From positions 1 to 32,325 of the IMG/VR virus record IMGVR_UViG_3300037809_000244: a DNA stretch of 32,325 nt, one strand, 5' to 3'. A model generated the notes under the pieces. That model was not told the origin of the DNA, made no database searches, and was given only the letters and a program-made list of their open reading frames with translations. Every line of letters starts with the position of its first letter. Positions within the stretch are counted from its first letter, which is position 1. This document shows, in pieces, positions 334-28,800 of this stretch. The position numbers and the translations under genes were made by a program. The stretch is from a virus.

Positions 334-476
334 AAAACGTAAAGTCGATAAAATCTAAATTAAAGAAAATAATAACTGATGGCGTTAATGATGTTAATAA
401 GACTGTACCTTGGGATGGTATGTATGATCATATTGTAGAAAAAATTATGATCATCGTTGAAGTTGGGGCTAAATGA
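330..476 (+). CDS. Small basic/amphipathic protein, 48 aa, function unknown
   Basis: This short ORF starts at TTG (330), overlapping the deformylase stop as TTGA, and its TGA (474-476) overlaps the ATG of the IMPDH-like gene as ATGA. This double overlap is the main support, because the same TTGA arrangement is used by the large recombination gene at 22370. The translation starts MKNVKSIKSKLKKIITDGVND and ends MIIVEVGAK: a lysine-rich N-terminus and a short hydrophobic stretch near the C-terminus. There is no clear Shine-Dalgarno sequence, so translation would depend on coupling from upstream. No domain is recognised. Confidence 0.5.
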   Translation: MKNVKSIKSKLKKIITDGVNDVNKTVPWDGMYDHIVEKIMIIVEVGAK

Positions 477-1678
477 AAAAGACACTGACTTTTGATGATG
501 TTGGGATTGCCCCTAAGTATAGCGAAGTTTTATCCAGAAGTAATATAGACTTAACAACTCGTTTCACAAAAAATACTGAAATCTCAATCCCAATAGTTTC
601 TTCACCAATGGATACCGTTACTGGTTATAAAATGGCGAAAGAAATGATGGAATGGGGTGGTGTAGGAGTTCTACATAGATTTAATACTATTGATGAACAA
701 TCACTTATGATGAAACGACTTCATAATGAATGGGATAAGTTTTTTGATATTGGTAAAGATTTTAGTTCATATGAAGAAATGTGGGAAAAGTGGAATAGTA
801 AGTTCAGTGGAAATTTACTTAACCGACAACTCACTCCTAATAAAGATGATTGGGATGACTTAAAGGAAGATATGTTCTTTGTTGATGAAATGGAAGAGAT
901 GAATGAACGGTGGAGAAAAAAACCACTATGTGCTGCAATCGGTGTGATAGATGATTATGTAGAAAGAGCACAAGAATTAGTAGCTAACGGATGTAATGTA
1001 CTACTTATAGATGTAGCGCATGGACATCACATATTAGTAAAAGATGCGTTAAGGAGATTAAAAAATGAAGTTAAAGGAACGTTTGAAGTCGTGGCTGGAA
1101 ATATCGCCACATCGGAAGCAGCAAAAGATTTATGTGAATGGGGAGCAGATGGTCTTAGAGTGGGAATCGGAAATGGAAGCTTATGTGAAACCCGTATTAG
1201 AACGGGCGTCGGGATTCCGCAAGTTACTACTCTTATGGATATACTTCCCATCTCTGATAATTATAATGTCCCTATTAATGCTGATGGTGGCATTCGTAAT
1301 ATCGGTGATGTTTGTAAAGGATTGGCTTGTGGAGCTGATTCAGTCATGTTGGGGTCTTTGTTATCGGGCACTAAAGAAAGTCCAGGGAGTATCGAAAAAA
1401 TAGGTCAATGGCCTAACGAACAGTTATTTAAAAAGTATAGGGGTTCTGCTTCGTTGGACTCTAAATTAGATAGAGGCGTAAATGAGAATGTGGAGGGAAA
1501 TCATAAAATCATACCATACAAAGGTAAACTCAAAAGAATACTTAAAGACATTACGGATGGAGTTCGTAGTTCTTTCAGTTATGTTGGCGCTAACAATATT
1601 AGCGAGTTTCATAGTAAAGTAGAATTAGTAGAAGTCACATATGCGGGGATAGTGGAAGCTAAACCGCATTTATTGTAA
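473..1678 (+). CDS. guaB: IMP dehydrogenase / GMP reductase family enzyme lacking CBS domains
   Basis: The 401-aa protein matches the IMPDH/GMPR TIM barrel along its length: LTFDDVGIAPKYSEVL at the N-terminus, SSPMDTVTG (43-51), LLIDVAHGH (177-185), the active-site loop GIGNGSLCETR with Cys238, the phosphate-binding DGGIR (271-275), and MLGSLLSGTKESPG (292-305). IMPDH oxidises IMP to XMP, the committed step of GTP synthesis. SSPMDTVT, the DGGIR context and the ESPG, YKG and AGI-E-PH C-terminal motifs favour IMPDH over GMP reductase, but the family cannot be split with certainty by eye. The tandem CBS regulatory domains usually inserted near residue 90-150 are missing. A charged, tryptophan-rich segment of different character (about 85-150) sits there instead. 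In the loop, the usual CTTR is CETR. The start overlaps the preceding stop (ATGA). Confidence 0.85.
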   Translation: MKKTLTFDDVGIAPKYSEVLSRSNIDLTTRFTKNTEISIPIVSSPMDTVTGYKMAKEMMEWGGVGVLHRFNTIDEQSLMMKRLHNEWDKFFDIGKDFSSYEEMWEKWNSKFSGNLLNRQLTPNKDDWDDLKEDMFFVDEMEEMNERWRKKPLCAAIGVIDDYVERAQELVANGCNVLLIDVAHGHHILVKDALRRLKNEVKGTFEVVAGNIATSEAAKDLCEWGADGLRVGIGNGSLCETRIRTGVGIPQVTTLMDILPISDNYNVPINADGGIRNIGDVCKGLACGADSVMLGSLLSGTKESPGSIEKIGQWPNEQLFKKYRGSASLDSKLDRGVNENVEGNHKIIPYKGKLKRILKDITDGVRSSFSYVGANNISEFHSKVELVEVTYAGIVEAKPHLL

Positions 1679-7193: not shown

Positions 7194-7610
7194 ATGGCAA
7201 GTGCAAGAGAAAAAGATTTAGATCCTGATGTTTGGATTGGATTGAGTTTTCCTTTAGGCAGGAGCTCATCTGGATTCTTTCCTCAAACACAAACCACATT
7301 AGAGCAAGTTAAATCTAACTTAAAAAACTTATTGCTAACTAACAAGGGCGAGAGATTGGGTCAACCTGAATTTGGTTCTAATTTGTATAAAACCTTGTTT
7401 GAAAATATAGACTCTGATTTGACGTCATCAGTAGAAGAGGAAATTAGGGGTGCCATAGGAAGATGGTTACCTTATGTTAATGTTGAAAACGTAATAGTAA
7501 CATCACCTGATATGATGCCTAATAGACTTGAAATAGAAATTAAATATAGTATAACATTAGAACCCGACAGGAATGATTCTTTATCGTTATCATTCGATTT
7601 GCAGGGATAG
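7194..7610 (+). CDS. 25: Baseplate wedge protein gp25 (gpW/gp25 family)
   Basis: This 138-aa protein is of typical gp25 length. It shows the family pattern: an N-terminal FPLG stretch, then TTLEQVKSNLKNLLLTNKGERLGQPEFGS, where the segment NLLLTNKGER..QPEFGSNLY is the hallmark, followed by a helix-strand region EEIRGAIGRWLPYVNVENVIV and a C-terminal beta region. In T4 and in contractile injection systems, gp25 joins the inner baseplate to the sheath and helps nucleate the wedge. AGGA lies eight bases before the ATG. The gene is immediately followed by gp6, the conserved order in T4-type phages. Confidence 0.9.
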   Translation: MASAREKDLDPDVWIGLSFPLGRSSSGFFPQTQTTLEQVKSNLKNLLLTNKGERLGQPEFGSNLYKTLFENIDSDLTSSVEEEIRGAIGRWLPYVNVENVIVTSPDMMPNRLEIEIKYSITLEPDRNDSLSLSFDLQG

Positions 7611-7622
7611 TGGAGAATTTAA

Positions 7623-9584
7623 ATGGCAACACCAACAAAGAAAATATCAAAAGAAGTTAGATATCTCAATAAAGACTTCGCTGGATTTAGGGACTCACTT
7701 ATAGAGTTTTCTAAAATATATTTTCCAAACACATACAACGATTTCAACGAATCAAGCCCAGGAATGATGTTTATTGAGATGTCATCTTATATAGGTGATA
7801 CGTTGTCTTATTATATAGATTCTCAGTTTAAAGAATCCCTATTAGCGTTTGCTGAAGAAAAGCGTACTGTATTTGAGATGGCCCAGACTTTTGGATATAA
7901 GCCTAAATTATCAAGTCCTGCTGCTGTGGATTTGGATGTATTCCAAACAGTACCTTCTATAGGCAATCCTGATAGCATAGCACCCGATCTAAGGTATGGT
8001 TTAGAAGTTCCATCAGGGCTTGAGGTGAAATCAAAGAGTGGAGTGACCTTTAGGACGTTAGAAGATGCTAATTTTAAATATTCGAGCTCTATGGACGATA
8101 TGGAGACTTCAATATACGAAACTGATGCAGATGGGTTAGTTTCAAAATATTTACTTAAAAAAACAGTTAAGGCTGAAAGTGGGCTTGTTAACACTGAAAC
8201 GGTATCTATAGGATCTGCTGAGAAGTATAAGCGAATAATATTAGATAAATTAAATATAATTCAAATCATTAGCATAACAGATAGTGACTCTAATTCTTGG
8301 TATGAAGTTCCATTTCTAGCTCAAGACACTGTATTTGATGATGTTGAAAACACATCAGCGGGCGATAGTGAACTATCACAATATAGTGATGATACCCCGT
8401 ATTTGATAAAGTTGATAAAGACCCCACGTAGATACACTACATTTATTAGATATGATAATAAGACTGAATTAAGATTCGGTGCAGGTATATCAGATAACCC
8501 TGATGAGGAGATAATCCCTAACCCTGATAGTGTGGGGTCATCATTACCAGGGAGCCCTAGTTACTTAAATACAGCGTTTGATCCTTCAAACTTTTTAGCA
8601 ACTAAATCATACGGTCAAGCACCTTCTAACACAACACTCACTGTTACTTACTCATATGGTGGTGGAGTTAAAGATAATGTAGCTCAAGGTGATTTAACGC
8701 AAATATCATCAGTATCATATAATATCAATGACACTAATTTAAATTCAAACGCGGTTCAAGATTCTAAGAATTCTGTCGCAGTTTTAAACCCCATTGCTGC
8801 TACTGGTGGTAGAAGTGAGGAATCGATACAAGAGATTAAGCATAACTCATTAGCTTATTTCCAAGCACAGCAACGGGCTGTTACTAAGGAAGATTATATT
8901 ATTAGAACATATGCACTACCCGCTAAATATGGAAGTATTTCAAAAGTATATATAGTTCAAGATGATCAACTAAATAAAGCTAACGATGAGCTCCTTACTT
9001 TTAATAAAAAGAAAAAGAAAAAATATAAAGCGGCTGCTAGAATAGCCAATCCCTTAGCTCTGAACATGTACACTTTAGGATACACAGCTGATAAGAAATT
9101 AATCACACTTAACGAAGCCACTAAGGAAAATATAAAAACTTATATAGGTCAATATAGAATGGTGACTGATGCGGTGAATATTAAAGATGCGTGGGTTGTA
9201 AATATTGGTGTAAAATTTAATATTATAACTAAAAGAGGTTATAATAAAAATGACGTTTTGTTAAAAGCTATCCAAAATATAAAAGGGTTTTTTGATATAG
9301 ATTCATGGCAGATTAATCAACCTATTATACTATCAGACATTGCATATAAATTATCTCTAGTAGATGGTGTGGCATCTATAGTACCACCTAAAGATGACAA
9401 TCCTCAAAACCTACCTATATTAGTAACCAACAAGTGGAGAACGTCTGATGGGTACTCTGGAAACATTTATGATATAGATTCAGCTATTAAAGATGGGGTG
9501 TTATACCCATCAATGGATCCTAGTATATTCGAATTAAAATACCCCGATATTGATATAGAGGGTAGAGTAATGGGAGATTATTAA
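7623..9584 (+). CDS. 6: Baseplate wedge protein gp6 (gpJ-like)
   Basis: This 653-aa protein is close in size to T4 gp6 (660 aa). The N-terminus has the conserved RYLNKDFAGFRDSLIEFSKI, then NESSPGMMFIEMSSYIGDTL and SYYIDSQFKESLLAFAEEKR, the characteristic start of gp6/baseplate J-like proteins. The middle contains AYFQAQQRAVTKEDYIIRTY, matching the J-like core, and a lysine-rich turn (LLTFNKKKKKKYKAA). In T4, gp6 dimers with gp7 and gp53 form the ring that drives baseplate expansion. GGAG precedes the ATG, and the stop overlaps the next start (TAATG). Confidence 0.9.
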   Translation: MATPTKKISKEVRYLNKDFAGFRDSLIEFSKIYFPNTYNDFNESSPGMMFIEMSSYIGDTLSYYIDSQFKESLLAFAEEKRTVFEMAQTFGYKPKLSSPAAVDLDVFQTVPSIGNPDSIAPDLRYGLEVPSGLEVKSKSGVTFRTLEDANFKYSSSMDDMETSIYETDADGLVSKYLLKKTVKAESGLVNTETVSIGSAEKYKRIILDKLNIIQIISITDSDSNSWYEVPFLAQDTVFDDVENTSAGDSELSQYSDDTPYLIKLIKTPRRYTTFIRYDNKTELRFGAGISDNPDEEIIPNPDSVGSSLPGSPSYLNTAFDPSNFLATKSYGQAPSNTTLTVTYSYGGGVKDNVAQGDLTQISSVSYNINDTNLNSNAVQDSKNSVAVLNPIAATGGRSEESIQEIKHNSLAYFQAQQRAVTKEDYIIRTYALPAKYGSISKVYIVQDDQLNKANDELLTFNKKKKKKYKAAARIANPLALNMYTLGYTADKKLITLNEATKENIKTYIGQYRMVTDAVNIKDAWVVNIGVKFNIITKRGYNKNDVLLKAIQNIKGFFDIDSWQINQPIILSDIAYKLSLVDGVASIVPPKDDNPQNLPILVTNKWRTSDGYSGNIYDIDSAIKDGVLYPSMDPSIFELKYPDIDIEGRVMGDY

Positions 9585-10690
9585 TGTACTATTTTGAATA
9601 TGGATCACAGGATGCGACGCTATACGAATCATCTCAAAGTATGAATTCAGGATTAGATAGTGTAGTTGAAATCCGGAAAGATGTTAATGCTAATGCTTCA
9701 GTTATAAAAGTTTCTAGAGGATTAATTCAATTTGATGTGACTTATATTTCAGAATCAATTGCCTCAGGCTTAATGCATAGTGCATCATTTTATCTCAACA
9801 TGTATGATGCTAATCCTGATAATTTAAATTTTGATACAACCCAAACGTTGTTAGCATATCCTGTAAGTCAGAGCTGGTCAATGGGAGTGGGTAGCTATAG
9901 CGATACTCCTATTACAACAGAAGGTGTGAGCTGGAAATATAGAAATGGTGAAAATGATGGGACACAATGGATCAGTGGTTCTGATGATACTGGGGGTGCT
10001 TGGTATTCTGGAAGTGGGTATGAAGCATCACAATCATATGATATAGATTCCAACGATATGCGAATGGATGTTACTGATATTGTGAATAAATGGGTAGATG
10101 GCACTATTCCTAATAACGGGTTTATCTTAAAGAGAAGTGGGAGTTTGGGTAATTCAGACGTCAATACACCTGAAGGTGATTCTAATAAATACGGCAACTT
10201 TAGTTTCTTTTCGAGAGAAACTAATACCATATATCAACCCAAGTTGGAAGTTGAATGGGATGATTCGACGTGGTCGACTGGATCGTTGGATGAGTTAACG
10301 TCAGGGGATTTGGATGATATGACGTTATATATGAAGGGACTGCGTGTTGAATATAAGGAGTCATCTAAGACTAAATTTAGAGTTGTTGGTAAGGAGCGAT
10401 TCCCGACAGCTACATGGGCCACTACATCTGACAATCTCACTGTAAAATATCTTCCAAGCGGTAGCTCTTATTATCAGATCAAAGACTCTCATAGCGGTGA
10501 TGTGATTATGCCTTATGGAACAGGGTCATTGTTAAGTTGCGACTCATCTGGGAATTATTTTAATATGTGGATGAACGGATTGCAATCTGAGAGATTCTAC
10601 GATATCGAATTTAAAGTTGTTAGTGGCAGTGGAACTGTCGATGAAACTATTCAATATTTCGATGGTGGTCATTTTAAAGTTGTGATATAA
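9584..10690 (+). CDS. DNRLRE-like beta-sandwich structural protein
   Basis: This 368-aa protein is coupled to gp6 by a TAATG overlap with GGGAG upstream. The N-terminal half follows the DNRLRE / disaggregatase-related pattern: repeated DATLYESS at the start, RGLIQFDVTYI, ASFYLNMYDA, then MRMDVTDIVNKWVDGTIPNNGFILKRSG and YQPKLEVEWDD. Such domains are beta-sandwiches found in surface and adhesion proteins. The C-terminal part is Ser/Gly/Tyr-rich beta structure. A peripheral baseplate or fibre-attachment role, perhaps with glycan binding, is inferred from neighbours. It has no obvious T4 counterpart. Confidence 0.7.
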   Translation: MYYFEYGSQDATLYESSQSMNSGLDSVVEIRKDVNANASVIKVSRGLIQFDVTYISESIASGLMHSASFYLNMYDANPDNLNFDTTQTLLAYPVSQSWSMGVGSYSDTPITTEGVSWKYRNGENDGTQWISGSDDTGGAWYSGSGYEASQSYDIDSNDMRMDVTDIVNKWVDGTIPNNGFILKRSGSLGNSDVNTPEGDSNKYGNFSFFSRETNTIYQPKLEVEWDDSTWSTGSLDELTSGDLDDMTLYMKGLRVEYKESSKTKFRVVGKERFPTATWATTSDNLTVKYLPSGSSYYQIKDSHSGDVIMPYGTGSLLSCDSSGNYFNMWMNGLQSERFYDIEFKVVSGSGTVDETIQYFDGGHFKVVI

Positions 10691-10691
10691 T

Positions 10692-11861
10692 ATGCCATAT
10701 TCATTAAAGGAATTAAAAAATAATCAATTTTGGAATGACATCCAAGATGCTGATGAAAAGGAGTATAATGATAAAATAAATCTAGAGTTTGATAAAATGT
10801 CAGCATCAGGGTCAACAATGAGCTCTAATCAGAATATGAGGGATGCTAATGGTAACATGCTGTTGTTTGAGGACGTAAATTCGGGTATGGGATTAAATAT
10901 GCCTCACCAGTTTATTTCAGTTTTTAGTTTACGTAGAAAGTATAAAAGTGGCCCAGCTATTGATCTTATATTAAAGAGGGATATTACTCAACTATTCCCT
11001 AAAAGTAAAACCAACATCAACACTAATATAATCACAGGATCTGTTACACAAACGGACCCGTCAGATACAAGTTCTGGTGGGACTTCGGATACAAGTTCTG
11101 GTGGGACTTCGGATACAAGTTCTGGTGGGACTTCGGATACACAGGTAGGTACGCCTACACTTACAGTTGATCCCATATCAATAATAACTAACCCAGATTC
11201 GACTATATACGCTGAACAGGGGGTTGATGATTATGTTGAGATCGTAGTGGATGTTAATGGCACTGCACCTATATTTCGATGGTATAAAGAATCTATCCCA
11301 TTAGTAAGCAGCGAGGCTTTTTCTGGAGTTTATACTAAAAAATTAAGAATAACAAACCTCAACGTTGCAAACAGTGGATATTATAACTGCGTTATAAGTA
11401 ATTCTAAATCGACTGTTTCCTCTACAAACGCATTAGTTGCAATTGCAACAGAACAAGATACTGGTGGGGGTCAAGGTGTATGTTTCGGCAAGAACGCTAA
11501 TATTTCAATGGCTAATGGTAAGCAAAAAGTCATACAACGAATCAAGCTAGGTGATGTAGTGAAAACCAAGAATGGTATAGCAGTCGTCAGCAAGATATAT
11601 AAAACACCAATTCACGGTCTACATAGAATGGTTAAATTAAACGGAATGTATTTGACAGACGGTCATCCAGTTTGTATAAATAATAAATGGAAGACTCCTG
11701 ATGAGGTTAAGCCTGCTGCTATGAAATATGTTGATTATTTATATAATTTAGAATTAAAAGGTGGTGATACAGTGTATGCTAATAATACATTATCAGCTAC
11801 TTTAGGTAAATGGAATAATATGGAATCTTTTTATAATTGGCGGAATATAAATAATGTCTAG
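10692..11861 (+). CDS. Baseplate-region protein with Ig-like domain and C-terminal Hint (hedgehog/intein) domain
   Basis: This 389-aa modular protein has four parts. Residues 1-115 are a helical phage-specific region. Residues about 124-150 are a linker of three perfect SDTSSGGT repeats. Residues about 155-252 are an Ig-like domain (FRWYKESIPL...LRITNLNVANSGYYNCVISNS, with the Ig Tyr-x-Cys motif). Residues 264-375 are a Hint domain: Cys264 at the splice-type N-terminus (VCFGKNANISMANGKQKVIQ, then RIKLGDVV), the block-B-like T322-x-x-H325 (LTDGHPV), and YNLELKGGDTVYANNTLSAT. Hint domains carry out N-to-S acyl shift and self-cleavage. The usual terminal His-Asn is replaced (ANNTLSAT), so intein-style splicing looks impossible, but hedgehog-type cleavage before Cys264 is plausible. 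The stop overlaps the next gene by eight bases. Confidence 0.78.
   Translation: MPYSLKELKNNQFWNDIQDADEKEYNDKINLEFDKMSASGSTMSSNQNMRDANGNMLLFEDVNSGMGLNMPHQFISVFSLRRKYKSGPAIDLILKRDITQLFPKSKTNINTNIITGSVTQTDPSDTSSGGTSDTSSGGTSDTSSGGTSDTQVGTPTLTVDPISIITNPDSTIYAEQGVDDYVEIVVDVNGTAPIFRWYKESIPLVSSEAFSGVYTKKLRITNLNVANSGYYNCVISNSKSTVSSTNALVAIATEQDTGGGQGVCFGKNANISMANGKQKVIQRIKLGDVVKTKNGIAVVSKIYKTPIHGLHRMVKLNGMYLTDGHPVCINNKWKTPDEVKPAAMKYVDYLYNLELKGGDTVYANNTLSATLGKWNNMESFYNWRNINNV
11064..11135 (+). repeat. Three perfect 24-bp in-frame tandem repeats
   Basis: Three identical 24-base units (11064-11087, 11088-11111, 11112-11135) encode the SDTSSGGT linker between the phage-specific region and the Ig domain. 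A partial fourth unit (GATACA) follows. The repeat length is a multiple of three, so copy-number change would lengthen or shorten the linker without a frameshift. Confidence 0.95.
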
Positions 11862-12585
11862 TAAATTAAATAACAAAGACACTGAGATGTTAGTATTAAC
11901 TGGAAATGTTCCAGTTAATGGGTTCGGCACGTTCCCTACAGATTTTGTTGAAGTGCACGTGTATGATTCAGAAGGAGTTCTTTTAAAGTCTAGTAGAACT
12001 TCTGATTACATAATAGGTGGTGAAATAAAAATGCAGCCCGGTAGTGATCTTAGAAGGATGGGATTTCGTAGGGGAAAATATAAAGTCAAATATAATTTTT
12101 TAAGAAGAAAAGCTGGTGATGATAAATACGTTGTTATTGATAGTGATAATAAAATATTTTCAGGGGATTATCACGTGGATGATGATGGTAGAATTTATAA
12201 GGGGAAGATAAAACCTATTGATGGGTCTCCCGTTGTTGAATTGGCTATTAAACCTTATAAATATTTTATACACGACATATCTAAGAACAGAAGTGAAATA
12301 CGAATAGCCCCTATAGGTATATCTGATTACAGATATAAAACCCCATTTAGTAGACTGGGGAGTGAGTGGATTACTACGAGCCCGGCTGGAGATGTTACTA
12401 TAGATTCTACAGACCCCACAATATTACATTTTGATGCAGATTCTTCAGGGTTTAATAAAAGAATGAAGGGTGGGTTTATAACTATCAAAAATGCGTTTTT
12501 AGTTGGCTATGAACAAACTATAGTAGGGTATAACAATATAGGCCCAAATGAGTCACATCTTCCAGGAGATTCACATGTCCCATAA
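11854..12585 (+). CDS. Structural-operon protein of unknown function, 243 aa
   Basis: The ATG lies eight bases inside the preceding Hint-protein gene, suggesting translational coupling. The protein is mainly beta: DTEMLVLTGNVPVN at the N-terminus, KYKVKYNFLRRKAGDDKYVV, then EIRIAPIGISDYRYKTPFSR and a C-terminal KGGFITIKNAFLVGYEQTI. No signal peptide or membrane helix is present. It lies between two tail genes and ends within the next one, so a baseplate or fibre-connector role is inferred. No family is recognised. Confidence 0.7.
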   Translation: MSSKLNNKDTEMLVLTGNVPVNGFGTFPTDFVEVHVYDSEGVLLKSSRTSDYIIGGEIKMQPGSDLRRMGFRRGKYKVKYNFLRRKAGDDKYVVIDSDNKIFSGDYHVDDDGRIYKGKIKPIDGSPVVELAIKPYKYFIHDISKNRSEIRIAPIGISDYRYKTPFSRLGSEWITTSPAGDVTIDSTDPTILHFDADSSGFNKRMKGGFITIKNAFLVGYEQTIVGYNNIGPNESHLPGDSHVP

Positions 12586-15500
12586 AAATATACATTCTGT
12601 GTTGTGGGGTGGTGGGAGCAACACCGTTAAACTTAGAATGATTGAACTAGGAGATGGTGGTGGGTCTGGTGGAGGCGGCGCTGGGGGTGGTGGATCATCC
12701 AACAACACCAACACATCTTCTAACACTAACAATTCACCACCTGCTGGATGGTCTTCTTGGGGCGATTATGATGAATGGAATAATGAAGGAGGAGGTGATT
12801 TAAGTGATAGATCTCAATATGGGTGGGTTCAACCATCGAGTGATGAATCAAGTAATCAAACTCCTCCAGTAGAAGAAGATTTCGAAGACGATGAGCAGAT
12901 ACCAGATACGCCTGGAGATCCCCAAGCTAACGATCCTGGGTATGATGCAATATATGAGACTACACCTATATATGCTGATTATACAACTAAGATATCCGAA
13001 ATATTATCACCAACGTCTATTAAGGTTGAGACTACATGGGAGAATAGAGCTAACACACACCCTGATGTTATATCTACAGAGTATAGTGGTCTAGAGACAT
13101 ATCCATTTAAGAACCCTAAAATTAAATTTAAATATCAGAGTAGATATGGGTTAAATAATTATTTAAATTTTGGTGGTGATAATTTATTACTCACTACCAA
13201 TTTTATCCAAGATAAAGTTACATTTGAAAAGTCACCATATTCAATGGTATATAAATTATATGATAAGCTTCCCTCAAATATAGTTAAAAAGGATTATTGT
13301 TATGTTGTTGAAGAAGTTCTCCCACCTATTGAAGAGGACGTATTTTTAATAGACTTTGTTGAAGAAGACGTCGATGCTGTAGTTTTAAGGAACCCAAAAT
13401 TAAATGATGTCGATTTCCCTATTAATATCAGAACTACCGATTATAAAACATACGATACCTTACTAACATCAGACGGCGATATAAGAGATGAATTAGAGAA
13501 CAAATTACTCAGTGGTAGCTCTGACAGCGTTGAACTCAACGTCGATTATTCTAGATATAAGAACTTCATCAATTTTAGTTCAATAGAAAAACGTATACGT
13601 AATTTTAAATACAAGCTAGATCAGATTGAAACGTATAGTGCTAATAGTGCATCACACGCAACTAATAACACACCAGTTACTGCTAGTTTAACTACAGAGA
13701 TTAATAGGTGGATGTTAAAACGACGTGAAACTATAAATGGATTTGATGGGTTTGAAAAATATATGTATTTTGAAAGCTCATCGTATGTTACTAGTTCCCT
13801 AGGGGAATTTTATGAAAACTCATGGCCAAAGACTAGTGGTGATGGGACATTTGCATCACCTTACGTGTTATCTCACACAACATCATCAGAAGGAGTTGAT
13901 TGGTTTGATGCTCAAATTTCAAGTGCGTCTTTATATGATACGCTAAACCCTAATTATTTATTAAACAATTTACCATCATTCGTTGTAGAAGATGATTCGA
14001 ATCGATCATTTTTAGACTTTGTAAAAATGACCGGGCATTATTATGATGATAATATATTTCTATACATTAAAAACATGACATCACCATTTAATACAAGGGA
14101 TGGGTTACCTGATGGTATGTCAAAAGAGTTAGTGTTTGATGTTGCTAAGTCGTTTGGGTTCAATTTAAAAGATGGCAAAGATTTGGTGGAACTCCCATTA
14201 TACCATATGGGGTATCAGCAGACGGGATCTGAATCTCCGACTGTTTATTCTGTATCATCAACTCAAGATATCTCTCGCGAGATATCTAAACGTGTTTTGA
14301 ATAATATGCCTTTCTTTTTAAAAACTAAAGGAACCGCTAGAGCTTTAAAAGGTCTTATAAATTGTTATGGTATTCCATCATCTATACTTAGAGTTAGAGA
14401 ATACGGAGGCCCTGATATACCAGGATCTGCTACATCTTACTCTATCACTAAAAAGTTTACCAAAGCATTGAATTTCAAAACCGGCCAGTTTATAAAAACA
14501 ACATGGATTGATAACGTTGATAGTGGACGTAAACCAGATACTGTTGAGTTTAGATTTAAGAGTTTAGCGAGTGATGGTTCAACTAATAGAGTATTGACCC
14601 AAAGTGGGGCCAGTTGGGCTCTCAGATTAATAGACAATGGTTCTGTTGATAATATAGGGAGAGTCGGATTTATAATGTCTGGGTCAGCAGGTTACTCTGA
14701 AGTATCTTCGTCAGAACTACCAGTGTTTGATGGTGAATTTTATTCAGTGATGTTAAATAGAGTATCATCATCTGGCGCTCAACTATCAAGTGATAGTGCA
14801 ACTCAAAATATAGATTATAATTTATCTGTAAAGAAATATGATGCGAGTCGCAGTACTATATATTTATCATCTACAGTTAGTATGAGCGTAGATGGTACTA
14901 CCAGTTCATCTTACAACTCATCATTTATAGTAGATAACAGCGCTTATATAGGCGGTAATGGCTCTACATTCGGATCAGCATTTACAGGGTCTATGATGGA
15001 GTTTAGATACTGGACTACAGCTCTGACAATGTCCGCTTTTGATAACCACGTTTCAGCCCCAAAAGCGTATGATGGTAATCACGCATCAGCTTCATGGGAA
15101 GATTTAATATTGAGATATTCTTTTGACGATAATAGCAATTTAGACGTTGATGGTGATATTAGAGATACTAGTTCAAATCAAACGTACTATCAAACGGGTA
15201 GTGCATCAGGATATACGGTAGGTAATAGACCTCATTTCAGTTCCGTTGTAGATGAACAAAAAATGTTTGTTCCTAATATAGGACCTAATAGAAAAATATC
15301 CAGTAAAATTAGAATTGAAACTAATACTATAGAACCTAACACTGATGGGACTACTACATTAGTAATGAATAAGAGAAAGGAAAAGAGTGCTTTTGATAGT
15401 GCTCCTTTAGATTCCAACAAAGTTGGTATATACTTCTCACCATCAGATGCTATAAATGAAGATATAATGCAATCAATGGCTAATTTAGATTTTAACCAAT

Positions 15501-16339
15501 ATCTGGGTGATCCTAGAGATGAATATAGCGATGATTATAGAGGGTTGCAAAGTGTGAGAGATTCTTATTGGAGAAAATATACTAGCCCTAACAATCTATG
15601 GGATTATATAAGATTGCTAAAATATTATGATATGTCGCTATTTGATAATATCAAGGGGTTGCTTCCTGCTAGATCAAATGCAGTAGTTGGGTTATTGATT
15701 GAGGGTAATATGCTAGAAAGATCTAAGGTAGCTATACAACCCAATAAACCATCAGTTGATAATTTATATTATGATACCACTATCGATGTGAGTGGGCATA
15801 CTGCAGATAGAGTCATATCAATAGGGTCAGATAGCGTTCTCCCATCTGTCGATGGTATAGGTGATGTTAATTACTACGAAGCTTCTAGCTCTTATAGCAT
15901 TGATTATTTACAAAGACCATCACTTGCTAAATTTAATGGGAATAATTTATATACTACAGCCTCAGTTAATGTAGGAGGGCCTGAGTATGTGTTTATTGAA
16001 ACAGTTCAACCTATTGTTACTGGATCCAGACCATCAGCTCATAATGAGGTCATGGACTATTTTTATAGTTCTGTAGCTAGCCATTCATTAGATATGCCCA
16101 GCTCATCATCATATTCTCCAGCTGATGGTGACACTTCCGCAAGAGAGTCGTTATCTTTTAGGAGACTGTATTTTGAAGGGTGTTTGCAAACTAAAAACAC
16201 TACACCCGATGGATTAATTCCAGTTGAAGTTACATTAACATCACCTACAGTATTAGTGACTAGTGAACCTGGAGAATCAACATTAAACGTAGATGGGCCC
16301 CACTTTACCCCTAAAACAATTGACGGTGAAGAGATTTAA
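12575..16339 (+). CDS. Large tail/baseplate protein with LamG-like domain, 1254 aa
   Basis: ATG 12575 is preferred to ATG 12548 because AGGAG (12564-12568) is six bases before it. The N-terminus (HKNIHSVLWGGG) leads into a Gly/Ser/Asn-rich flexible segment (about 25-110). Residues about 576-614 hold PFFLKTKGTARALKGLINCY followed by GIPSSILRVREYGGPD, similar to the P2 gpI/T4 gp7-type tail segment LPyLLKTKGT..l..l...YGI. Residues about 630-850 resemble a LamG/concanavalin-like lectin domain (VEFRFKSLASDGS, YIGGNGSTFGSAFTGSMMEF, RYWTTAL). Its position after gp25-gp6 supports a wedge-extension or fibre-docking role with possible glycan binding. The coding frame is continuous with no visible break. 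Confidence 0.75.
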   Translation: MSHKNIHSVLWGGGSNTVKLRMIELGDGGGSGGGGAGGGGSSNNTNTSSNTNNSPPAGWSSWGDYDEWNNEGGGDLSDRSQYGWVQPSSDESSNQTPPVEEDFEDDEQIPDTPGDPQANDPGYDAIYETTPIYADYTTKISEILSPTSIKVETTWENRANTHPDVISTEYSGLETYPFKNPKIKFKYQSRYGLNNYLNFGGDNLLLTTNFIQDKVTFEKSPYSMVYKLYDKLPSNIVKKDYCYVVEEVLPPIEEDVFLIDFVEEDVDAVVLRNPKLNDVDFPINIRTTDYKTYDTLLTSDGDIRDELENKLLSGSSDSVELNVDYSRYKNFINFSSIEKRIRNFKYKLDQIETYSANSASHATNNTPVTASLTTEINRWMLKRRETINGFDGFEKYMYFESSSYVTSSLGEFYENSWPKTSGDGTFASPYVLSHTTSSEGVDWFDAQISSASLYDTLNPNYLLNNLPSFVVEDDSNRSFLDFVKMTGHYYDDNIFLYIKNMTSPFNTRDGLPDGMSKELVFDVAKSFGFNLKDGKDLVELPLYHMGYQQTGSESPTVYSVSSTQDISREISKRVLNNMPFFLKTKGTARALKGLINCYGIPSSILRVREYGGPDIPGSATSYSITKKFTKALNFKTGQFIKTTWIDNVDSGRKPDTVEFRFKSLASDGSTNRVLTQSGASWALRLIDNGSVDNIGRVGFIMSGSAGYSEVSSSELPVFDGEFYSVMLNRVSSSGAQLSSDSATQNIDYNLSVKKYDASRSTIYLSSTVSMSVDGTTSSSYNSSFIVDNSAYIGGNGSTFGSAFTGSMMEFRYWTTALTMSAFDNHVSAPKAYDGNHASASWEDLILRYSFDDNSNLDVDGDIRDTSSNQTYYQTGSASGYTVGNRPHFSSVVDEQKMFVPNIGPNRKISSKIRIETNTIEPNTDGTTTLVMNKRKEKSAFDSAPLDSNKVGIYFSPSDAINEDIMQSMANLDFNQYLGDPRDEYSDDYRGLQSVRDSYWRKYTSPNNLWDYIRLLKYYDMSLFDNIKGLLPARSNAVVGLLIEGNMLERSKVAIQPNKPSVDNLYYDTTIDVSGHTADRVISIGSDSVLPSVDGIGDVNYYEASSSYSIDYLQRPSLAKFNGNNLYTTASVNVGGPEYVFIETVQPIVTGSRPSAHNEVMDYFYSSVASHSLDMPSSSSYSPADGDTSARESLSFRRLYFEGCLQTKNTTPDGLIPVEVTLTSPTVLVTSEPGESTLNVDGPHFTPKTIDGEEI

Positions 16340-20809: not shown

Positions 20810-21075
20810 ATTGTAGTCAGTACTGCGAATACAAAATAGGTTTTAACTAAAATGTTTTAATATAACTTTTAGTCTGAAATTAGTGTACCTATTACATATA
20901 TTCATCTGTGCTGATTACTAATTAAATAATAATAATTAACTATTAAATAATAATAATTAACTATTAAATAATAATAATTAACTATTAAATAATAATAATT
21001 AACTATTAAATAATAATAATTAATAATTAACTAATTATATAGTAGTATTAATAATAATACAAATAAGTTATTTAT
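20782..21075. other. Non-coding AT-rich region between late and replication blocks
   Basis: No convincing ORF, tRNA or intrinsic terminator is visible in these 294 bases. The left half has a 7-bp stem (ACTAAAA 20846-20852 with TTTTAGT 20867-20873) around a 14-base loop. The right half is the 21-bp tandem repeat array listed separately. The location between the tail/small-protein block and the primase/recombination block makes it a candidate replication start or control region. Confidence 0.6.
20921..21025. repeat. 21-bp AT-only tandem repeat array (four perfect copies plus a near-perfect one)
   Basis: Units of 21 bases begin at 20921, 20942, 20963, 20984 and 21005. The first four are identical and the fifth differs only at its last two bases. 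Each unit is nearly all A and T, with one C, and contains AATAATAATAATTAA. The array ends in further AT-rich sequence about 50 bases before the nuclease gene. A 21-bp period is two helical turns, so the A-tracts repeat on one face of the helix. The layout suits an origin iteron, a DNA-unwinding element or a bent protein-binding site. Confidence 0.9.
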
Positions 21076-21425: not shown

Positions 21426-22373
21426 GTGGATAAACTAGTTTATTTGTTAAATAGGGTTATAGGTAATTCCGGTAAAAAACTTAGAAAGGCTGATGAACGT
21501 ATATGGAATTGCCCATTCTGCTCCCACCACAAACCCAAACTGCAGATTAATTTGAAATCATATAATTGGCATTGTTGGGTATGTAATGTAAAGGGTAGAT
21601 CATTTTTTCAATTGTTTAAAAAACTAAATACATCAGTTGAAAATTTCAATGAGCTTAAAGAATTAACGGGCACGTCAATATATGAATATTGTGGCGATAA
21701 ATTAAAATCAGATAATATACAACTACCACCTGAATATACACCCATACTATATGAAAACAGCGGCCCTGTATTTAACAGAGCTAGTTCATATCTAAAATCA
21801 AGGGGAATAACGCACAGTGATATACTAAAGTATAATATAGGGTACTGTGAAACCGGAGTTTATTCTAATAGAATTATAATACCATCATATGATGATACAG
21901 GTAATTTAAACTACTTTATAAGCAGAGATTTTTATGATAGCAGTATGAAGTATAAAAACCCAATAGGCTCTAAGGATGTTATCGGTTTAGAGTTATTTAT
22001 CAATTGGGATGAGCCTATAAAAATTGTTGAAGGCATTTTCGATGCGATAGCTATTAAGCGAAACGCTATACCGCTATTTGGTAAAACTATACTACCTAAA
22101 TTGAAGAAGAAGATAATAGAAAAAAAGGTTACAGACATCTACGTTTTATTAGATGAAGATGCTATAAACGACTCTATGAAAATGATCCAAGAGTTTATGG
22201 ATAATGGAATTAACGTGTACTTCACAAATCTCACTGGGGGTGACCCTAGCGATATAGGGTTTGCCAAAATCACCCAGTTAATATCAGATACACATAAGAT
22301 GAGTTTTTCAGATTTTATTAAGCAAAAGCTGGTCACTAAGACTAAAAATATATGGGATAATTTTTCAATTTGA
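21426..22373 (+). CDS. DNA primase, T4 gp61-like (zinc finger plus TOPRIM)
   Basis: The start is GTG 21426. The 315-aa protein is close to the 342 aa of T4 gp61. An N-terminal zinc finger CPFCSHHK (C29, C32) and WHCWVCNVKG (C50, C53) binds template DNA. A TOPRIM domain follows: IVEGIFDAIA (Glu202), and YVLLDEDA (Asp243 and Asp245) as the DxD motif. Primase synthesises RNA primers for lagging-strand replication, normally with a helicase, which is not in this window. An AAGGA lies about 15 bases upstream, and a direct repeat GATAATAGTG (21409-21418, 21419-21428) spans the junction with the nuclease gene. The stop overlaps the next start as TTGA. Confidence 0.85.
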   Translation: MDKLVYLLNRVIGNSGKKLRKADERIWNCPFCSHHKPKLQINLKSYNWHCWVCNVKGRSFFQLFKKLNTSVENFNELKELTGTSIYEYCGDKLKSDNIQLPPEYTPILYENSGPVFNRASSYLKSRGITHSDILKYNIGYCETGVYSNRIIIPSYDDTGNLNYFISRDFYDSSMKYKNPIGSKDVIGLELFINWDEPIKIVEGIFDAIAIKRNAIPLFGKTILPKLKKKIIEKKVTDIYVLLDEDAINDSMKMIQEFMDNGINVYFTNLTGGDPSDIGFAKITQLISDTHKMSFSDFIKQKLVTKTKNIWDNFSI

Positions 22374-25300
22374 AAAATACTAAAATAAAAGTTAAGTTTG
22401 ATAAGTTAACGCAGATATTTCATATTTCAGATATACATATTAGAAACTTAAAAAGACACAATGAGTATGAAGCTGTGTTTAGTCGTTTATATTCTAAGAT
22501 ATCATCACTCAACGACGGATCTAGTATAATATATGTGGGGGGCGATATAGTACATGCTAAAACGCAAATGTCTCCTGAACTGATACATCTCACATCTGAT
22601 TTTTTCAAAAGATTAGCAGACATATCACCCACATTAGTTCTTATGGGTAATCATGATTGTAATTTAAATAATAGAAGTAGAATGGATGCACTGTCTCCAA
22701 TAATAGAAAATTTAAATCACAAAAATTTACATTATATGAGAGATAGTGGAACCTTTGATGTAGCAGACACTACGTTTACAACATGGTCTGTTTTAGATAG
22801 TAGCGATGATTACATATCAGCTAGTGATGTAGTAGGAAAAACTAAAATTTTATTATTTCATGGTACTATAGATCACTCTAAAACTGATATGGGATTTGAA
22901 TTACCGTCAGATGTTAAGTTGTCAATGATGGATGGGTATGATATGGTATTATTAGGGGATATCCATAAAGCACAAACGTTGCAGCGATATTCAACTAAAT
23001 CTAAAATAAAAAAACCTATAGTGAGGTTTTGTGGAGATCTCATACAACAGAACCACGGTGAGTCTTTGAAAGGTCACGGAATGTCTGTGTGGGATGTTGA
23101 AGATAGATCATATAAGCATGTGGAGATACCTAACGATTATGGTTACTACACTATGGATATAGAAGATGGGGTAGTCCCTGATGTTGATGATGTACCTGAT
23201 AAGGCTAGAATGCGCATACGAGTATCTAATACTACTGAATCTGATTTAAAGAAAGCCTTAGCTATAATCCATAAAAGACACGGTATAAAGGATGTAGTTG
23301 TTAATCGCAATGGTAAGTTGATTGACAGGGTACGTGGAAGTTCTTTAGAAATAGGGGACGTATCAGATCCAAATTATCAATACGAGCTCATCGATGATTA
23401 TTTAAAACGAAATCATGTGTTAGATGATTCCATTCTATCTAAGATAAAGAATATAAATGAGGCAATGAATTCGGACTTACCAGATGGAGACGTGTCTAGA
23501 AATGTAAACTGGAAATTAAAGAAATTTGAGTTTTCTAATATGTTTTCATATGGTGATAATAATACAGTCGATTTTACACATATGATGGGCATTATGGGGT
23601 TATTCGCACAAAACGCTGCTGGTAAATCATCATTATTAGATGCGTTATCGTTCTGCTTATATGACACATCTTCCAGAGCATTTAAAGCAAGTAATGTATT
23701 GAATAATAAAAAAAATAATTTTGAATGTAAAGTTAATTTTGAAAGTGCGGGTGTTGATTATTATATTGAGCGAAAGGGTAAGAAGCTAAGTAATGGATCT
23801 GTAAAGGTAAATGTTAATTTCTACATGCGTGATGAATCTGGTGATGTTATTTCATTAAACGGAGATCAACGTAGAACTACCAATATAAACATTAAGAAAA
23901 TTATAGGAACGTTTGAGGATTTTATATTAACATCTATGTCACTCCAAAACAATAATACAGTTTTCATAGATAAGACTCAGAAAGAACGAAAGGAAATATT
24001 AGCTCAATTTATGGGCATAGGTGTATTTGATGATTTGTATAATAGGGCTATCGATGAAATATCAGATGTGTCTGCTGTTCTAAAAAACTTTAAACAAAAT
24101 GATTATGGTATTGAATTAGCAAATGTTGAAAGTGAGTTAGCATCTAAAGAATCCCACCACACGGAACTCAAATCTCAATACTTAACGTTAAAAGAGAAAA
24201 GGGTAATTATTGATGAAAAAATATTAGACCTCAACAAACGATTGAAGCCTATAGATGATTCTATATTAGACCTTGATGATTTAGAATCACAAAAAACTAT
24301 ATTGGTTGATGGTTTAGAATCCATAGACACCCAGCTTGGGGTGATATCGTCTACTAGAAATGAGAATATTATAAATGAAGATGAACTTAATATTAGAATA
24401 AATCAACACGTTAGTGATAATGTTAATAATTTATTTTTAGAATACAAGCAACACGAATTAGATAGAGCTGAAACTAAAATAGATATAGATAAATTAAAGA
24501 TAAACGTTAGAAATAAATTAGATAAGATAGAAAAGTTAGGTAATTTAGAGTATGATGATAATTGCGACTACTGTATGAATAACCCTTTTACCTTAGACGC
24601 TATAGATACAAAATCACAGTTAGATCACGATAAAGCGCTAGCATCTGAATATGTAGTTAAAATAGATAATCTGGATAGTATATTAGAATCTATGAAATGG
24701 GTACATCAAGCAAAAATCGACTTTGATACTTCAATTGAATCTATAAAGAATATAGAGATATCAAAAAACAAATTGGATTCGGAATCCACATTATGTATTG
24801 AGATGAAAAAAAACATAATACATCAGATATCATTAATAGAATCTAAGATATTAGACCACAATGAAAAGCAGAGTGATATTGAGTATAATGTAAACATCGA
24901 ACGTAACTTAGTAGCGTTAGAATTAGAAGTGGTTGATTTAAATGAAAGCATCGTAAGTGTGGATCTCAATATCAATGATGTGTATGGTGATGTTAAGGTG
25001 TTGGATTCTAAAAAAATATCAATATTAGAAACAATAGACAAAGTAACTGATCTTGAAGATAGATATGCTGCTTATGAATATTATTTAGACGCTATCAAGC
25101 GCGATGGTGTACCTTATGAACTTATAACAAAAGCATTACCTGCAATAGAAGGTGCTGTTAATGATATATTAGCTCAAATAGTAGACTTCTCTATTATATT
25201 GGAAATGGATGGTAAGAATATCAACACTTATATAGTGTATGATGATGATAACGTATGGCCGTTAGAGCTGAGTAGTGGTATGGAACGATTCGTATCATCA

Positions 25301-25546
25301 TTAGCTATAAGGGTAGGATTGATTAATGTATCTAATTTACCTAGATCCAACTTCCTAGCAATTGATGAGGGTTTTGGTAATATGGATGCTGATAATCTAA
25401 ATTCAGTATATCAATTATTTCAATACTTAAAGAGTCAATTTCAATTTACAATGGTAGTGTCTCATATAGAGTCTATGAGGGATGCTGTTGATTCTTTAAT
25501 AGAAATCAAAAAAGAAAATGATTTTAGTAATGTTAATTATATTTAG
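22370..25546 (+). CDS. Fused Mre11-Rad50 (SbcD-SbcC; gp47-gp46) recombination nuclease
   Basis: This 1058-aa single chain has TTG 22370 overlapping the primase stop (TTGA). The N-terminal Mre11/SbcD part shows FHISDIHIR, GGDIVHAK, MGNHDCN, LLFHGTIDH and LLGDIHKAQ, the five phosphoesterase motifs that bind two metals. The Rad50/SbcC part starts near residue 380: Walker A FAQNAAGKSS (about 412-420), Q-loop SLQNNN, a coiled-coil arm with a CxxC zinc hook (Cys732, Cys735 in NCDYCMNN), ABC signature LSSGMERF (about 967), Walker B FLAIDEGFGNMD (Asp999, Glu1000) and H-loop VVSHIE. In T4 the two halves are separate genes and resect DNA ends for recombination-dependent replication. All catalytic motifs are intact here, with no stop between the halves. 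The 3' end overlaps the minus-strand regulator by 14 bases. Confidence 0.9.
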   Translation: MKNTKIKVKFDKLTQIFHISDIHIRNLKRHNEYEAVFSRLYSKISSLNDGSSIIYVGGDIVHAKTQMSPELIHLTSDFFKRLADISPTLVLMGNHDCNLNNRSRMDALSPIIENLNHKNLHYMRDSGTFDVADTTFTTWSVLDSSDDYISASDVVGKTKILLFHGTIDHSKTDMGFELPSDVKLSMMDGYDMVLLGDIHKAQTLQRYSTKSKIKKPIVRFCGDLIQQNHGESLKGHGMSVWDVEDRSYKHVEIPNDYGYYTMDIEDGVVPDVDDVPDKARMRIRVSNTTESDLKKALAIIHKRHGIKDVVVNRNGKLIDRVRGSSLEIGDVSDPNYQYELIDDYLKRNHVLDDSILSKIKNINEAMNSDLPDGDVSRNVNWKLKKFEFSNMFSYGDNNTVDFTHMMGIMGLFAQNAAGKSSLLDALSFCLYDTSSRAFKASNVLNNKKNNFECKVNFESAGVDYYIERKGKKLSNGSVKVNVNFYMRDESGDVISLNGDQRRTTNINIKKIIGTFEDFILTSMSLQNNNTVFIDKTQKERKEILAQFMGIGVFDDLYNRAIDEISDVSAVLKNFKQNDYGIELANVESELASKESHHTELKSQYLTLKEKRVIIDEKILDLNKRLKPIDDSILDLDDLESQKTILVDGLESIDTQLGVISSTRNENIINEDELNIRINQHVSDNVNNLFLEYKQHELDRAETKIDIDKLKINVRNKLDKIEKLGNLEYDDNCDYCMNNPFTLDAIDTKSQLDHDKALASEYVVKIDNLDSILESMKWVHQAKIDFDTSIESIKNIEISKNKLDSESTLCIEMKKNIIHQISLIESKILDHNEKQSDIEYNVNIERNLVALELEVVDLNESIVSVDLNINDVYGDVKVLDSKKISILETIDKVTDLEDRYAAYEYYLDAIKRDGVPYELITKALPAIEGAVNDILAQIVDFSIILEMDGKNINTYIVYDDDNVWPLELSSGMERFVSSLAIRVGLINVSNLPRSNFLAIDEGFGNMDADNLNSVYQLFQYLKSQFQFTMVVSHIESMRDAVDSLIEIKKENDFSNVNYI

Positions 25547-25807: not shown

Positions 25808-28800
25808 ATGGGTGTAATCCGCCGTTATAATAAACACCAAGGTTTAGAGAAGATAGACGTTCTTATTGATGATACAGCACCTATATCCCAATACTTCAAC
25901 GCTGCTGAAATCCCTGATGCTATTACTCAAGGGAGAAGTTCATTTTTAATTGGTGGCTCTATTTTATTAAAACGCGGTATAGAGTTGAAGGTTGAAATAG
26001 TTTCAGATTTAACTGGTAAAACGATATACACTGAGGCTGTATCTAATTATTTGGAAGGGACATCCCATAGGATATCTATAGAAGTATACAATGATAATGA
26101 CACTTTTGGAGATGCTACACTTTACATCGTAGGTGAGTTGAATACATCAAAAGTACCAGTACCACCAGAATGGAGAAATGTATATAATGTAAGGTGGACT
26201 AAAAAAATATATATAAACGGTGCTGGTGTTAATACACAACCTATATTATTTTACGATCAACCATCTATGTGGGTGAGTGAGGTAGTAAAAGGGTTTGTTG
26301 AAACTACAACACCATCTGGATCAATATCACAGAGTGCAGGAACGTTATCAGGCGATCCCACTCCAGGTTCAGCTGGATCTATAATTTCACCCGACAAGTC
26401 GTCATCATTACCTAAATTAAAAAATTCATATAAAAGTAAAGTATTCGGTGGTGGTGGTAAAAATGCAGGTATTAGTAGTAGAGGTCGAGCTGTTAGAAGA
26501 GCTTCACCTGAGGTTGAAAAATTTAGTATAAATATATCTGGTAGCGATTTTAATGTACAACATGTTGGTGCTAAGCTTACAATTACATCCCCAACAGTAG
26601 ACACGTCTCAATTTACATTAGAATCATATCATGAAGTACCTACCACATTCACTACTGAAGTAAAGAGTGTAAAAAATAACAACACATTAATACCTGATAA
26701 TGAGTTCTACGTAACTGATACTCGAACTGGCGATAAAATAACAGTTCCATTAGCAACTAGTAATTATGAATTAGAATACCAACCAGCCCCAACCCATTCA
26801 GTTAGTGTAACAAATTTTAGATCATTTGCTGATGTTAGAATTTCAAACATGAGAACGTTTTCGGGCGATGTCCATCGAGTTAAATTGTACGCTAAAAATA
26901 AAGACGCATATGGTGATTTTGAGTTAATAGCTGACACTCCAATAGAAAGCCCTGAGTTGTTATATGACACATATTCACCATCAGATTCTAGAAGGATAGG
27001 GTATTTTATAGACCAAGACACTATTGATACTTATTGGGAAAGTGGATCATCTACTAACATATCACATGATTCGAGCTTCGTGTTAGACTCAATGCATATA
27101 TCAGGATCTAATAATAGTTATGGAGATACTCTATTAGTACAGACTACTGGATCATTAGCTATAAATTTTGAACCTAATATAACGTATGTGATTAGAGCTC
27201 GTATATTAGGAAACCCTAAAGATAAGCAAACTCAAAATGGAGCTGGGTTCTTTGCTGACAATTCAATTGCTCAGTTGGGATTTTTCCTATCAGGGTCCAA
27301 TTTTAATTCAAATCACAATATGGGGTCATCTTTTGGGTGGCAAGTAACTGATAATAACTCATCTCCTGGTTGGTTAAATGTAAATGAGGGAGGAGGGTTT
27401 ACTGATTTTGGTATTGTTGAACAATCATTCACACCACCCACAACTGGATCTGCTATATTGCAAATTGGTGTACAATCTGGAGAATGGTATATATCAGATG
27501 TCTCTATAATGCCAGCTACTGATACTGGGTTCTCACCTGATTGGACTAGGTTGATAGCACCCATACCACCATTCACACAAGAACGCCCTGATGATTATGA
27601 ATTCATTGCTGAGTTTTATGATATAAATAATAATATAGCTGATAATATAGCGCACACGACAGCGTCGACGTTTGAAGGTGGTAATACAGTAATAGGCGGT
27701 ACTGATAATCTATTAACAGGCTCAGTGTATATAGGAAATGCATTAGCATCAGGTATTGAAATGGCGGGGATGAATTCTGGATTTATACGATCTATAGGTT
27801 ATGATGGATTTGTAAGTGCATCAGATGGAACTGGACAAAATGGATTTTTAATGTGGTCTGGTTCAATATTACCAGACAGTGGTGATTCATATAATGGTGT
27901 TGGTTTAGAATTAGTAGCTACTAGTGAAAGTTATTTTAGATATAGGAGCAATCCTAGCGAATTGGATATTAGAGCTGATGCTTTTTATGTAGGAAGCGAC
28001 ACTACTCAATATATTAGTGGTAGTGGTGGTAACATAGAAATTAGTTCTTCCAATTTTCACTTATCAAGTAGTGGTGATGTAACGATAGCTGGTACTATTA
28101 CAGCAGAAGCTGGTGATATAGCTGGTTGGTTAATAGCCACAGGATCAGATGGTCGTTCGTTATTAAGTGGTTCTAATATCACATTAGATGCTAGCGGTTC
28201 ATCATTTTTCATGTCAGATAAAGGACCAAGAAGTGATGCAAGTTATCCTAATGGATTTGAATCATTAGCAGACGAATATTATATGGATTTCACACCAAGT
28301 GGAAGTGATGATTCAGCTGGATATTTCGTAAAATTTGGCCCAAACTTCTCTGTTGATCATCAAGGTATTCTAATCGCAAGTGGAGCGGTATTTGAAGGAA
28401 CAATTACAGCATCCGCCGGTTTAATCGGCGGAGCATCAATAGAAAGTGCGTCATTAGCCTATTCACCATATTGGAGGATATCTGCTTCAGCCGATACATC
28501 AGATCCAGTATCATTTATTTCATCAAGTAAATTTAAAGTATCAGCTGGTGGTGTTGTAACAGGATCACAAGTATTATTTGACGGTGGAAAAATCGCTGGT
28601 TGGACTATAAGTGGTGATGATTTAACTGCAACAAATATGGCATTACGAGCTGGAGACGCAATAGAAATGGGGGATGCCACTGACCTTAATACTGGAGATG
28701 GTGTTTGGATAGGTAATAGTGGTTACTTTAGAGCAGGTGATGCAGATGGACAAAGAGTAGAATTTAATGGTACTAGTTTAATATTAAGTTCATCAAATTT

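Follow-up and report, generated by a model that had tools for sequence, protein, structure and literature searches.

The locus and its surroundings

The DNA analysed here, hereafter the window, is a virus record of 32,325 bases (IMGVR_UViG_3300037809_000244), in which an open reading frame at 10692-11861 (+) encodes a protein of 389 aa. Upstream of it lie a gene for a GPW_gp25 protein (7194-7610; Pfam) and one for a gp6/J-type wedge protein (7623-9584). Viral contigs contain relatives of the wedge protein by the several hundred, and it shows 40-47% identity to its counterparts in Flavobacterium phage immuto and Microcystis phage Mel-JY01. With these genes just upstream, the frame is located in a baseplate operon, as the original prediction had it, here the T4-like one of an uncultured contractile-tailed phage, and by its gene position the 389-aa protein is presumably part of the virion. 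Another record, IMGVR_UViG_3300037805_000456, shares 99.987% identity with the window across 15,142 nt, so the two records amount to a single phage population known to carry the gene.

The frame's stop codon (11859-11861) and the start of the following gene, whose ATG lies at 11854, share an overlap of 8 nt; the overlap had been pointed out before and stands. A fusion of the C-terminal domain to the next gene through this overlap was considered and rejected: 8 nt is ordinary coupling, and no such fusion occurs in the relatives examined. The two following genes, 11854-12585 and 12548-16339 (+), overlap each other by 38 nt in different frames. A single long frame spans both homologues in five related loci and the homologues are separate in two others, an arrangement that may reflect either a gene split or fusion, or a frameshift.

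Elsewhere, the window encodes an IMP dehydrogenase (473-1678 (+); PF00478, E 1.9e-102) and, in one gene at 22370-25546 (+), a calcineurin-like phosphoesterase together with an SMC/SbcC ATPase part, that is, an SbcD-SbcC (gp47-gp46 type) fusion. An AT-rich 21-nt tandem repeat of ~6.7 copies (20893-21060) stands upstream of a small frame and the primase gene. A frame of at least 2172 aa (25808-32323 (+)) runs off the window; it has internal repeats and no Pfam match, and it is a tail-fibre or adhesin candidate.

Domain architecture and the N-domain family

All parts of the protein are encoded on the + strand. The N-terminal domain (residues 1-~105; 10692..11006), recognized by profile matches and gene neighbourhood, belongs to a conserved baseplate-operon family and is followed by a low-complexity linker (11007..11183), in which TRF and a repeat search place a 24-nt (8-aa) tandem repeat of 3.2 copies, 100% identical, at 11064-11141. 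Next come an Ig-like (I-set) domain (residues ~165-252; 11184..11447), a Gly-rich junction, TEQDTGGGQGV, ending in Val263 (residues 253-263; 11448..11480), a Vint-type Hint core (residues 264-373; 11481..11810) and a post-core tail of 16 aa (residues 374-389; 11811..11858). The Ig assignment is based on an above-cut-off match to PF07679 at residues 178-245 (E 1.1e-6) and on the similarity of the isolated domain to titin (E 2e-18, phmmer). Both the repeat linker and the Ig-like domain had been proposed from the letters of this DNA, and both hold. From the residues at the junction, Val263-Cys264 is the predicted scissile bond.

In most related loci, residues 1-~105 are matched at the same place by a protein of ~100-110 aa, and the gene order is kept: a homologue of 9584-10690, the N-domain gene, then homologues of 11854 and 12548. 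The window protein likewise stands between the 9584-10690 and 11854-16339 genes and carries the family pattern MPY-x-x-EL ... FED ... V/ILxRxIxEL. An N-domain profile gave 67 matches in a first set of loci, window copies included, and a second viral-contig scan yielded 98 complete distinct members, window included. About two-thirds of these (66 of 98) are 80-119 aa long and consist of the N-domain alone, ending in ...VLDREIKEL, which aligns with ...ILKRDITQL of the window protein, near residue 101. Because the short members stop there, everything past about residue 101 in the window protein is an added extension. In an AlphaFold model of residues 1-263 only the N-domain is good (pLDDT about 80-90 at 1-40 and 50-70, with a long helix at residues 12-38), and a Foldseek search with this model gave nothing significant. 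A match of residues 17-98 (10740-10985) to the AcrF10 anti-CRISPR (NCBIfam, E 2.4e-4, under cut-off) was set aside; the stretch lies within the conserved baseplate-operon family.

The extensions on the N-domain differ widely. Four members reach a total of ~380 aa and two are 319-aa forms, and a subgroup of ~185-250 aa, with more than six members, shares a distinct ending, NGDVVTN...KWLI..NQKR.F.DL..FY, which is another interchangeable extension. In four relatives, L120, L121, L122 and L137 (300 aa), the N-domain is followed by a C-terminal Ig domain; Ig_2 is matched over its cut-off in L137 (E 2.9e-7) and just under it in L122 (6.9e-6), and the Ig of L120 and L121 was assigned by near-identical sequence. 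The Hint domain is absent from all N-domain relatives among the 98 complete members. Since N-domain plus Ig occurs in relatives and the Hint in none, the window protein is best described as an N-domain and Ig protein with a Hint placed after the Ig.

The Hint domain and its catalytic residues

The C-terminal domain belongs, on profile evidence, to the Vint family of the Hint superfamily. With the whole protein as query, PF14623 (Vint) matches residues 263-366 (E 6.4e-19, Pfam), and the isolated Hint part gives E 5.3e-20 and 72.3 bits, where the cut-off is 27. The other Hint-type profiles, Hom_end_hint (21 bits), Hint (the Hog profile, PF01079; 15.6 bits against 29.7) and Hint_2 (14 bits), all stay under their cut-offs. 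Cys264, Thr322 and His325 are all present, the latter two in the motif T322-D-G-H325, and further Hint core features are a block-F-like DYLYNLEL and the end TLGK. The Vint match spans only 1-111 of the 166 profile positions, and only 16 residues follow the core; as the 112-166 region is missing, we class the domain as a Vint-type Hint core and not as a complete Vint domain. The upstream VWA and Vwaint of VWA-Vint proteins are also lacking: the baseplate N-domain and the Ig stand in their place, and Pfam gives no VWA match. A single-sequence AlphaFold model of the Hint alone, made without an alignment, has a pLDDT of 30.

The only significant PDB relative of the domain is 8r2c (E 7e-7, 28% identity), deposited as a VWA-domain protein of Tetrahymena, which we take to be a Tetrahymena Vint domain. 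The alignment score to it is 106, a value reached by none of 5000 shuffles of the Hint (shuffle maximum 55). The 8r2c protein has LGHNFQE at 116-122 of 169 and continues for ~50 residues beyond the core, a region to which the paper on the structure reportedly assigns adduct recognition; in the phage protein, Lys373 replaces the LGH histidine and 16 residues remain after it. The Asp of intein block F is replaced by Asn352, where 8r2c has Gln. The C-terminal His-Asn of inteins is absent, as was originally noted, and Ala-Thr (in NNTLSATLG) takes the equivalent positions in our alignment. The other marks of a class 1 intein, a +1 nucleophile and a C-extein, are lacking too, the frame ending soon after the Hint.

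These features bear on the idea that the domain is a degenerate intein, a mobile element that inserted at the gene's end and has no function for the phage. Inteins do occur in other phage genes, such as phiCbK TerL, but here the endonuclease part and the C-extein are both absent, and the 72 bits for Vint stand against 21 and 16, both under cut-off, for Hom_end_hint and Hint; we consider this origin very improbable.

The original prediction thus stands in its main parts: a C-terminal Hint domain, Cys264 and T322-x-x-H325 at the positions given, no terminal His-Asn and a baseplate operon. It missed the assignment to the Vint family, the conserved N-domain and the existence of N-domain and Ig relatives that have no Hint.

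Searches for further viral or bacterial copies

Neither the whole protein nor the 8r2c segment found anything significant among 50,697 phage records, nor did the Hint among these records and 72,556 plasmids. Scans of viral contigs, whether by whole protein, by Hint, by an alignment of two Hint sequences or by three DNA patterns, returned the same phage only, a weak negative as these were exact-match or single-sequence searches. Genome contigs returned nothing, again a weak negative because the canonical-Vint patterns were exact-match. PF14623 was found in one of 50 records covering the window's twin and related phages, namely the twin, and control genomes match the Vint family only below its cut-off. 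In the literature searched, no paper describes a Hint domain on a baseplate or tail protein; those that turned up deal with inteins elsewhere in phage genomes, and the Vint domain was itself defined from eukaryotic VWA proteins (PMC2362128).

Proposed self-cleavage and its alternatives

The best explanation, to which we give an even chance on the strength of the residues and the architecture, is that the Hint serves as a self-cleaving C-terminal tag that leaves an N-domain and Ig form of the protein. The conserved ~100-aa baseplate-operon protein would bear a variable C-terminal extension, here the repeat linker and Ig followed by the Vint-type Hint. After folding, Cys264 would attack the Val263-Cys264 bond with the assistance of Thr322 and His325, forming a thioester; its resolution by water or a thiol would shed the 126-aa Hint, and the 263-residue N-domain-linker-Ig protein would remain on the baseplate. 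The Hint would thus be a removable, perhaps timed, tag. By analogy with proposals for Ig decorations on other phages, the Ig domain probably touches the host surface.

The residues fit a cleavage at Val263-Cys264, because Cys, Thr and His are present and the His-Asn and a C-extein are absent. Type B bacterial intein-like (BIL) domains, which have no block G, undergo cleavage but not splicing (PMC4031507), and a Gly-rich junction lies ahead of Cys264. The Vint match, far over its cut-off, also speaks for this reading. By composition the Hint is no fresh insertion, because its G+C (0.336) matches that of the window (0.342), and composition therefore points to neither an origin nor a date for its gain. 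Cleavage would also restore a natural architecture, the one that L120, L121, L122 and L137 encode directly; the 263-aa product, ending in GGGQGV soon after the Ig, would have its terminus near the natural end of these relatives. It is mainly because of this resemblance that we prefer a shed tag. Against it, neither the Asp of block F nor the His of LGH is kept, and the Hint, known from one phage population (two records), offers no independent copy in which conservation of the catalytic residues would show.

The same replacements favour an inactive decoration, in which the acquired Hint fold has lost cleavage and, like the Ig, adds a surface domain to the baseplate. The free variation of C-terminal extensions among relatives and the singleton status of the Hint agree with this reading. 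Yet the domain has diverged to 28% identity with 8r2c while keeping all three N-terminal catalytic residues, and its reading frame is intact. We regard loss of activity as possible but rather doubtful.

The thioester at Val263 could instead be handed, as in hedgehog proteins, to a nucleophile of the virion or host surface, covalently fixing the phage or the Ig stalk. This chemistry is open to Hint domains with the Cys and T-x-x-H, cholesterol modification by the hedgehog domain uses no step beyond the first acyl shift (PMC7664689), and a place in the baseplate would bring the protein to the host surface. However, 16 post-core residues, compared with ~50 in 8r2c, leave little room for an adduct-binding part, and no adduct or partner is known. 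The original prediction had offered cleavage and covalent attachment side by side; the short post-core region weakens attachment, which we think unlikely.

Comparison with known systems

With a Vint-type domain on a phage baseplate protein, a bacterial virus carries a hedgehog-related autoprocessing domain, and carries it fused to an Ig of the adhesion type. Although a singleton, the N-domain, Ig and Hint form an unusual and testable combination. If active, the tag would spare phages a separate protease in the maturation of a tail protein, and a small Hint with no His-Asn and almost no trailing region would be useful for asking what cleavage requires.

The closest likeness is to the eukaryotic VWA-Vint proteins and 8r2c: the phage domain falls far over the cut-off of the same family, PF14623, it stands at the C-terminus of its protein as theirs does, and it shares with 8r2c the T-x-x-H, the W-x-x-P, the D-Y-x-Y block and the LG ending. 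It differs in having LGK for LGH, in the loss of most of the ~50 post-core residues, and in the Ig and baseplate domain that replace VWA and Vwaint. With the Hedgehog Hog domain (PF01079) it has in common a C-terminal Hint, the Cys1 and T-x-x-H and the lack of His-Asn, whereas its match to that family is under cut-off and little post-core region is left for adduct recognition. Type B BIL domains likewise lack intein block G, and the phage Hint would cleave without splicing as they do; unlike them, it exceeds the cut-off of no Hint-type Pfam family besides Vint, and it ends its protein with only a short C-flank. Finally, as in the Ig-like decorations of phage tails, an Ig is appended to a tail or baseplate protein, and four relatives carry one behind the N-domain described here, but in this phage a Hint follows the Ig.
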